A DNA stretch of 64,000 nt, taken from NCBI RefSeq assembly GCF_022374875.2, contig NZ_CP092427.2:3844001-3908000 (forward strand), in the 5' to 3' direction. Position numbers and translations under genes: made by a program. The DNA is from Mycolicibacterium rufum (GTDB lineage Bacteria; Actinomycetota; Actinomycetes; Mycobacteriales; Mycobacteriaceae). Below are positions 59,719 to 61,129 of the stretch, piece after piece. The notes under the pieces are model-generated. The model was not told where the DNA came from. It searched no databases and worked only from the letters and a program-made list of their open reading frames with translations. How positions within the stretch are numbered: the first letter of the stretch is position 1; each line of letters starts with the position of its first letter.

Positions 59719-60600
59719 ATGGCCGACGGACTCAGGGTGGTGGTCTCGCTCGACGGACAGGTCCATGATCCCCAGGCGCCCCTGCTGTACGCCGACGATC
59801 TCGCCGCCGTGCGCGGCGACGGCATCTTCGAGACACTGCTGCTGCGGCACGGTCGCCCGTGCCTGCTCGAGGCGCACCTGGCCCGCCTGACCCATTCCGC
59901 GAAGCTGATGGACCTTCCCGAGCCGGATCTGTCGCAGTGGCGTTCGGCGGTCCGCGTCGCCGTCGACCGCTGGGTCGCCGCGGGTGGTGACGAGGCCGCG
60001 CTGCGGCTGGTCTACAGCCGCGGTAGGGAGAGCGACCCCACCGGCACGGCGTACGCGACGGTGAGCCCGCTGCCCGCCCGTGTCGCCGACGTCCGGCGCC
60101 ACGGCGTCGCGGCGCTGACGCTGGAACGGGGCCTGGCCTCGGACGCCGACGACGGGATGCCGTGGCTGCTCGCGGGTGCGAAGACGCTGTCCTACGCCGT
60201 CAACATGGCCGCGCTGCGACACGCCGAGCGCCAGGGCGCCGGGGACGTCGTCTTCGTCAGCACCGACGGCTACATCCTCGAGGGTCCCCGCTCGACGGTC
60301 GTCATCGCCGGCACCTCCGCCGACGGCCGCCCCTGCCTGCTCACCCCGCCGCCGTGGTACCCGATCCTGCGCGGCACCACGCAGCAGGCACTGTTCGAAG
60401 TGGCGCGCAACAAGGGCTACGACTGTGACTACCAAGCCCTGCGGCCCGCCGATCTGCTTGCTGCGCAAGGTGTTTGGCTGGTGTCCAGCATCACGCTGGC
60501 GGCGCGCGTGCACACCCTCGACGGCAACCCGCTGTCCCCTTCGCCGTTGGCCGACGAATTCGCCGCCCTGGTCGACGCCGCGATCACCAGTGATCGCTGA
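59719..60600 (+). CDS. pabC: aminodeoxychorismate lyase (class IV PLP enzyme)
   Basis: A 293-residue PLP enzyme of the branched-chain aminotransferase fold, corresponding to Rv0812. It should split aminodeoxychorismate into 4-aminobenzoate and pyruvate for folate synthesis; relatives also act as D-amino-acid transaminases. The PLP lysine is Lys155 in LLAGAKTLSYAVN, the phosphate-side block is DGYILEGPRSTVVI, and GDGIFETLLLRHGRP the N-terminal family block. It is divergent from the YgfZ-like gene and followed by a region holding a candidate small transcript. Confidence 0.9.
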   Translation: MADGLRVVVSLDGQVHDPQAPLLYADDLAAVRGDGIFETLLLRHGRPCLLEAHLARLTHSAKLMDLPEPDLSQWRSAVRVAVDRWVAAGGDEAALRLVYSRGRESDPTGTAYATVSPLPARVADVRRHGVAALTLERGLASDADDGMPWLLAGAKTLSYAVNMAALRHAERQGAGDVVFVSTDGYILEGPRSTVVIAGTSADGRPCLLTPPPWYPILRGTTQQALFEVARNKGYDCDYQALRPADLLAAQGVWLVSSITLAARVHTLDGNPLSPSPLADEFAALVDAAITSDR

Positions 60601-60613
60601 GAGATTAATTGCC

Positions 60614-60642
60614 TTGTCGCCCAGCCTCTGCGCGGGTACCTT
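60614..60642 (+). promoter_or_regulatory. promoter for the transcript after pabC
   Basis: TTGTCG (60614-60619), exactly 17 nt, then TACCTT (60637-60642): a SigA-like promoter right after the pabC stop, predicting a start near 60649. Confidence 0.5.
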
Positions 60643-60648
60643 CGCCTG

Positions 60649-60828
60649 TACACAGGGAAGGAGGTGGTCCGACAAATTGATTGACTTATGGACATGTGAG
60701 GTGGCTGCGAGCTAGCAGCGCCGGGGGAGCGCTTGTCGCACACCTGCGCGCGCTGGCGAATTCCCCGCAGTCACCCGGCCCCCGAGCCCCTCGGTTGAGT
60801 CCGACCAGGAACAACGGCTCGGGGGCCG
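60649..60828 (+). ncRNA. candidate structured small transcript / short-ORF leader after pabC
   Basis: Its own promoter is followed by AAGGAGGT (60658-60665), an almost full anti-anti-SD. Two short frames start with TTG: 60677-60715, which codes for LIDLWTCEVAAS, and another from 60681. GGTG...GACAA (60663-60675) can pair with TTGTC...CACC (60733-60744), hiding the ribosome site. GCTGC-N6-GCAGC (60704-60719) and CGGGGGA with TTCCCCG (60722-60767, one G-T) add further stems. The element ends in a perfect 13-bp hairpin. No plus-strand gene follows, so it is either a free small RNA or a tiny-peptide gene. I do not recognise it as a named family with certainty. Confidence 0.5.
60776..60828 (+). 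terminator. 13-bp terminator hairpin
   Basis: CGGCCCCCGAGCC (60776-60788) and GGCTCGGGGGCCG (60816-60828) are perfectly complementary around a 27-nt loop. It separates the plus-strand transcript from the convergent lipoprotein gene, whose stop codon lies at 60854. Confidence 0.7.
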
Positions 60829-60853
60829 CTCCATGTCTGGGGGTGGGCGTGGT

Positions 60854-61129
60854 CTACGGGTGGGCGGGCGCGTCCGGGCCCGGAGCCAACGAGGAACAGG
60901 CCTGCATGGCCGTATCCCAGGTGGCGGCGTCCACACCCGGCGGCGGTCCGGTGACGGGGCCCGGCGACGCGGGCACGCCGTGCTGGCCCAGGCAGTAGGC
61001 GAGCGACCCGTGACCCACGCTGGGGGACACCGTGGTCGTCGTGGAATCCGGCGGGTTCGCCGGGTACGAGGAACACGCCGCCACGACACCTGCCGCGGTC
61101 ACCGCCGCGGCCGCGGTCAGAAAGCGCAC
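60854..61129 (-). CDS. small lipoprotein
   Basis: A 91-residue protein starting at GTG 61129, with a lipoprotein signal whose lipobox is VVAAC (Cys19). The mature part is short, Pro/Gly-rich and has two more cysteines in AYCLGQHGVP and MQACSSLAP that could form a disulfide. The function is unknown. Its start shares one base with the stop of the nitrobindin-type gene (TAGTG), so translation is coupled and the two are probably one transcript, together with the small membrane protein upstream. Confidence 0.78.
   Translation of the reverse strand: MRFLTAAAAVTAAGVVAACSSYPANPPDSTTTTVSPSVGHGSLAYCLGQHGVPASPGPVTGPPPGVDAATWDTAMQACSSLAPGPDAPAHP

Follow-up and report, generated by a model that had tools for sequence, protein, structure and literature searches.

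Several systems are known in which a small RNA and a ribosome meet over a short reading frame. Dual-function sRNAs of the SgrS/SgrT type carry such a frame beside their RNA function, and tmRNA is a structured, pseudoknotted RNA whose short frame meets ribosomes. The RNA described here belongs to RF02471 (Ms_IGR-5), an sRNA described in Mycobacterium and Streptomyces that was reportedly discovered by Li et al. (RNA 19:74). In the E. coli rpsO mRNA (S15), as described in passages of PMC3858243, the Shine-Dalgarno (SD) sequence docks on the 30S subunit while a pseudoknot holds part of the coding sequence and must be melted there. For Ms_IGR-5 itself, passages of three papers report relatives expressed as separate small transcripts: it was validated by RNA-seq in S. 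lividans (PMC8079986), was one of the two Rfam-matching members of a set of 139 sRNA units in S. avermitilis (PMC8780764), and is overlapped by M. smegmatis ncMSMEG15794c (PMC10454040). Ribosomal reads on Ms_IGR-5 were significant in M. abscessus and were also present in M. smegmatis data, according to passages of PMC4974804, whose authors cautioned that ncRNAs yield footprints too. The passages of the cited papers name no ORF or 16S complement for Ms_IGR-5, and no published function was found in the open-licence PubMed Central literature, discovery paper excluded. In the main-text passages of a survey of peptide-coding sRNAs (PMC5521070), mycobacteria, actinobacteria and Rfam were not mentioned, and Streptomyces coelicolor was present only within the genome list. 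The RNA family is thus known; what is new here is the complement to the 16S tail, the conserved 12-codon frame, and the fold formed by a helix (H2) and a pseudoknot. We propose, at a little below an even chance, that RF02471 is a ribosome-directed, translation-gated RNA.

The locus was found in a window of 64,000 nucleotides, the whole stretch of DNA that was analysed, within a 253-bp gap (60601-60853) bordered by pabC on one side and a convergent 91-aa ORF, for which no Pfam match was obtained, on the other. The original prediction held that this gap was not empty, and the Rfam match (E = 1.9e-43) indicated a real feature and not chance. At 184.9 bits the match lies well above the RF02471 gathering cut-off of 45 bits; it was the sole Rfam match at gathering scores in the whole window and the only copy in this genome. 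The prediction had called the RNA uncharacterised, which was incorrect, as the transcript is already filed in Rfam and named in earlier papers. Its self-contained transcript of ~180 nt corresponds to an RNA of ~185 nt with a conserved promoter, and no plus-strand gene follows it in the window, where the next genes lie on the opposite strand. The features are as follows.

59719-60600, plus strand: pabC (Pfam Aminotran_4).
60614-60642, plus strand: promoter, with TTGTCG at 60614-60619, a 17-nt spacer and TACCTT at 60637-60642, from sequence and conserved position.
60650-60834, plus strand: RF02471 Ms_IGR-5 RNA, full model 1-184.
60655-60671, plus strand: 16S clamp including the SD site, a 17-nt contiguous complement of the 16S 3' tail, G-U allowed.
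60667-60670, plus strand: 5' strand of H1, GTCC, the predicted alternative partner of GGAC 60690-60693.
60677-60715, plus strand: 12-codon micro-ORF, TTG to TAG, MIDLWTCEVAAS, a conserved frame.
60690-60693, plus strand: GGAC in codons 5-6, the pseudoknot 5' strand, pairing with loop GUCC.
60700-60709, plus strand: 5' strand of H2 (last base of codon 8 and codons 9-11), from covariation.
60766-60775, plus strand: 3' strand of H2 (the anti-ORF), just before the terminal hairpin, from covariation.
60776-60828, plus strand: terminal G+C-rich hairpin H4, with a 13-bp outer stem and no U tract.
60799-60802, plus strand: GUCC in the H4 inner loop, the pseudoknot 3' strand.
60854-61129, minus strand: convergent 91-aa ORF, the other border of the gap.

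Homologs were compared in a set of 157 loci (~1-1.5 kb of flank each) together with at least 120 loci from named genomes. A stricter pattern, in-frame by construction, resolved 150 of the 157; L025, L079, L086, L087, L098, L105 and L157 are outside the promoter, clamp, start and stop, codon and partner-search counts, and L085, L086, L087, L098 and L157 are among the loci with a weaker consensus fit. The promoter, predicted as TTGTCG/TACCTT with 17-nt spacing, is present and conserved in position in most of the 150 loci: 142/150 have a TANNNT element at that distance, and in 106/150 a TTG precedes it by 16-18 nt. This sigma-70-like promoter ends 7 nt before a conserved 5' ACAC. A simple promoter scan listed no site in the gap because it requires 9 of 12 consensus letters.

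In overlapping genome samples, and with E <= 0.001 as the limit, RF02471 was present in 71/78 genomes of the genus, 128/150 of the order, 192/296 sampled from the class and 48/246 sampled from the phylum (23 of them above cut-off), and in 0/14 controls in each case. The named-genome pattern scan found at least 120 stretches, and the matches listed include Mycolicibacterium, Rhodococcus, Nocardioides, Cellulomonas, Frankia, Micromonospora and Amycolatopsis. Among the 157 loci, the upstream neighbour was a ygfZ-like gene on the minus strand in 38 and pabC on the plus strand in 37, and a nitrobindin-like minus-strand gene lay downstream in 42. When the nearest downstream ORF was picked by a crude GC3 criterion, it was on the opposite strand in 100/141 loci and on the same strand in 41/141, and no conserved co-transcribed downstream gene was found, no Pfam family occurring more than four times among the 41 same-strand loci. 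The RNA was therefore taken as a stand-alone gene.

RF02471 was absent from 7/78 genomes of the genus, and so the RNA is dispensable. At one locus (L311, genome G687) the promoter and terminal hairpin are left and the whole middle is lost, as if deleted between short similar letters, and at six others (L312-L317) no clamp or GAGGTG motif was found within 400 nt behind pabC. A copy in a 3.3-Mb genome of the same genus (L157, G713) has lost the clamp and the terminal hairpin pattern, with the short frame still open, and looks decayed. A phage or plasmid origin, for which the matches were one phage record (22% of the query) and one replicon of Nocardia farcinica, was rejected; a single viral-contig pattern match (L309) looks like chance on reading. 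In an unverified 'Bacteriophage sp.' record from human faeces (L310, MT835602.1), 56 bases are 86% identical to the RNA's 5' half, and this may be a true phage copy or stray bacterial DNA.

The near-perfect ribosome site of the original prediction, AAGGAGGT, is present as part of a longer complement to 16S rRNA. Counting G-U pairs, GGGAAGGAGGTGGTCCG can form a 17-nt duplex with the 3' tail encoded by the genome's own 16S genes, a tail that is single-stranded up to helix 45. Complements to this same tail reached at least 16 nt in 148/150 loci and at least 14 nt in 150/150. The 13-nt core AAGGAGGTGRTCC occurs at exactly three sites in the genome, here and opposite both 16S ends; such sites are few in relatives too and commoner in some genomes of the class (seven in all, rRNA included, in G166). 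The clamp-tail duplex had an energy of -29.3 kcal/mol versus -20.5 for the next best site in 64 kb, in a scan limited to sites prefiltered for one of five 4-mers.

Pairing of the clamp with the 16S tail was retained in 2085/2096 cells of 131 Actinomycetes members, with ten of the eleven non-pairing cells at the outermost position, and in 304/304 cells of 19 members of other classes. In the 131 Actinomycetes members, letters opposite C varied in 0/786 cells, whereas letters opposite U varied in 167/786, nearly always between A and G, both of which pair with U. The search patterns partly fixed clamp positions 0 to +10, so that positions -5 to -1, free in the pattern, are the fair test, and there 584/600 cells paired in the 120 named-genome matches listed; that pattern also fixed the TG-to-GGAC spacing, and only unfixed positions serve as a test. 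Clamp variation was read, from these alignments, as selection for pairing with the complete 16S tail.

Downstream of the clamp, the original prediction had placed frames beginning with TTG at 60677 and 60681. The first is the conserved frame (TTG ATT GAC TTA TGG ACA TGT GAG GTG GCT GCG AGC TAG), and the second lies in another frame. The micro-ORF core was present in 137/137 Actinomycetes loci when up to four substitutions were allowed. Across the family, comparison places the start codon 5-10 nt behind the GGAGGTGG core and gives a frame of 12-15 codons, with changes of length in whole codons in other classes. Start codons in the 150 resolved loci were TTG (92), ATG (32), GTG (15), ATC (5), CTG (3) and ATT (2), with none in one; the start of L011 was counted as ATC, and an ATT one codon later is also readable. 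The distance from GAG to the stop was five codons in 147 of these loci, and the stops were TAG (137), TGA (7) and TAA (5), with none in one. As a fair test, the first ATG, GTG or TTG after the site was in frame in 129/131 Actinomycetes members; among the 19 other members it was in frame in 9, out of frame in 3 and missing in 7. Most of those ten without an in-frame codon had an in-frame ATT, ATC or CTG instead, evidence that counts for less, since more codons were admitted in that search. In the 120 named-genome matches listed, where the first base of the start codon was free and CTG allowed, starts were TTG (83), ATG (23), GTG (14) and CTG (0), and a stop occupied the same codon in 120/120 (TAG 114, TAA 4, TGA 2).

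Codons 2-4 are free, and GAG and GTG are invariant in 125 members (a codon table that leaves out L011, L074, L085, L102, L134 and L137); L085 and L102 differ by one codon at the stop end. Rfam types the family as sRNA, non-coding, and the conserved frame, as far as sequence can tell, would argue against that filing and suggests translation.

A second, shorter SD-like element, GAGGTG (60698-60703), lies inside the micro-ORF, partly in H2, and is invariant in the 125 members. One locus (L141) has no evident start codon. In a weakly matching outgroup (L156), clamp, start and stop are kept and, by eye, the open TTG-to-TAG frame is in another register. In L148-L152, from other classes of the phylum, and in L011 and L080 the start seems to be ATT or ATC, which are rare start codons known for IF3-sensitive control in infC.

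RNAalifold was applied to an alignment (A1) of 57 of the 137 Actinomycetes loci, chosen partly for a visible H2, and returned H2, H4, a small H1 and a small stem near the 5' end. In A1, 97.4% of H2 cells were paired, with 43 double-changed cells versus 9 in shuffles. The recount used all 137 members and gave 1302/1368 paired cells versus at most 1216 in 200 shuffles, and 96 double-changed cells versus at most 42; the sequences are related, so that cells are not independent events, and the partner search sought the downstream strand of H2-type helices freely and finds the best by construction. Three loci (L085, L086 and L130) paired at fewer than 8 of 10 H2 positions. In the predicted fold of the window's own RNA, from a program without pseudoknots, H2 had a probability of 0.91-1.0 per pair.

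The pseudoknot GGAC/GUCC paired in 546/548 cells. It is near-invariant, and its covariation is slight: one double change (GGAT/ATCC in L092) and consistent outgroup pairs read by eye (CGACC/GGTCG in L139, GGGACC/GGTCCC in L148). H1 was paired in 98.7% of cells, yet showed no covariation. GGAC can pair with the clamp GUCC (H1) instead of the H4 loop, so that these letters are contested between clamp, H1 and pseudoknot. With the pseudoknot formed, the clamp and everything after it up to +13 would be free and the pseudoknot would begin at +14. The Rfam consensus structure, by comparison, is without H2 and the pseudoknot and was filed without an ORF; its stem pairing the SD with the ORF (93.9% paired, no double change, no gain over shuffles) was rejected.

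A pairing of GGTG/GACAA with TTGTC/CACC had been predicted to hide the ribosome site; it was neither conserved nor part of the predicted fold, its 3' part falling in a variable, gapped portion of A1. Of the predicted 13-bp terminator (60776-60788/60816-60828), the hairpin is real and its counterpart in the family covaries, whereas no U tract follows and the terminator scan did not list it. The broader suggestion, either a micro-protein gene or a regulatory RNA for which being translated or not makes a difference, stood in so far as the transcript is self-contained and has a conserved 12-codon frame folded in; the proposed switch failed, as the conserved fold leaves the ribosome site largely free and pairs the coding part.

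What the RNA does can be read in several ways. Translation of the micro-ORF could free the anti-ORF and the GUCC loop to pair with target mRNAs, as in a dual-function sRNA, and the stand-alone transcript with its own promoter, the filing as sRNA and a fold that translation would open are consistent with this. The anti-ORF, however, tracks the ORF sequence and offers no fixed seed, and we consider such an RNA rather unlikely. Because the anti-ORF varies in step with the ORF, no outside partner with constant letters was seen other than 16S rRNA, and the ribosome is therefore the favoured target. If instead the 12-residue product (x-T-R-E-V-A-x-R) were what matters, the conserved frame, start and stop would fit, yet codons 2-4 are free, the conserved residues are encoded by bases that pair in the pseudoknot and H2, and the open frame of L156 is in another register by eye. 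GAG and GTG also never change to synonyms in 125 members, which indicates constraint at the RNA level, and a micro-peptide gene is improbable.

The fixation of GAGGTG and GGAC at RNA level, together with the ambiguity of footprints (passages of PMC4974804), favours an untranslated RNA whose conserved motif happens to contain the frame. Against this, wherever the stop position departs from TAG it holds another stop (7/7 in 125 members, 6/6 in the 120 named-genome matches listed), although of the nine codons one base away from TAG one is itself a stop; CTG starts are absent from the 120 listed matches, though the pattern allowed them; and the frame changes length in whole codons in other classes. 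We regard an untranslated RNA as slightly more improbable still. A micro-ORF that controls read-through into the downstream region would have the layout seen here, a leader-peptide-like frame with a hairpin behind, and 41/141 loci do have a same-strand ORF nearest downstream. That ORF lies on the opposite strand in 100/141 loci, as in the window, and no Pfam family recurs more than four times among the same-strand loci; an attenuator was rejected for want of a conserved downstream gene, and a leader function is very improbable.

The reading that we prefer, a ribosome-directed and translation-gated RNA, draws on the counts for clamp pairing, ORF, H2 and pseudoknot, the rare 13-nt core and the duplex energy, as well as on the reported ribosomal reads in M. 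abscessus and M. smegmatis (passages of PMC4974804) and the rpsO precedent (passages of PMC3858243). The anatomy of the RNA is well supported by comparison, and from it we infer binding, translation, gating and effect. A free 30S subunit would dock on the folded RNA, which would clamp the 16S tail. The free stretch from the clamp to +13 would about fill the 30S mRNA channel, with +14 at the mRNA entry, given the dimensions of that channel. A pseudoknot at +14 from the start codon would then sit at the mRNA entrance and slow elongation. Binding would seem to be favoured and release slow, to judge by the predominance of start codons other than ATG, with ATT or ATC in some clades, and by the very strong clamp. 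After successful initiation the ribosome would reach the stop codon and melt the pseudoknot and helix; having passed the frame it would stop one codon beyond H2, holding the RNA open. After failed initiation the RNA would stay folded with a parked 30S. In this way it may sense or buffer the capacity for initiation, with the ribosome rather than an mRNA as its main partner.

Several observations weigh against ribosome docking. A long complement could merely give efficient initiation, and the GGAC/GUCC covariation is slight and that of H1 absent. Clamp positions 0 to +10 were set by the patterns, and 7/157 ill-fitting loci were omitted from the counts made with the stricter pattern. The RNA is missing in 7/78 genomes of the genus, and some genomes have extra 13-nt core sites. 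The caution of the Ribo-seq authors on ncRNA footprints (passages of PMC4974804) applies here as well. The full version, a phylum-wide RNA that targets the ribosome by clamping the complete 16S tail, holds a 30S at a weak start in front of a pseudoknot and opens only when 12 codons are successfully translated, is a tentative possibility. If true, the RNA would gauge or buffer the cell's capacity to initiate translation; no ribosome regulator of this kind was found in searches of the open-licence PubMed Central literature. For a widespread orphan family, in the phylum that holds Streptomyces and the mycobacteria, this offers a testable hypothesis on ribosome control.

The known systems resemble this RNA in part. 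ARAGORN found 0 tmRNA or tRNA genes in 60400-61000, and with no tRNA-like domain tmRNA was rejected; in contrast to tmRNA, the RF02471 RNA has its own start codon and SD. Unlike RNAs of the SgrS/SgrT type, it has a frame of 12 codons that is paired with its own 3' half, and no mRNA target is known. The rpsO mRNA is similar in how it might work: both have a free SD and a pseudoknot with coding sequence near the start codon, a likeness of predicted mode of action only. RF02471 differs from rpsO in that no stabilising protein is known, and in that it stands alone with a 12-codon frame, places the pseudoknot behind the start codon and complements the whole 16S tail.
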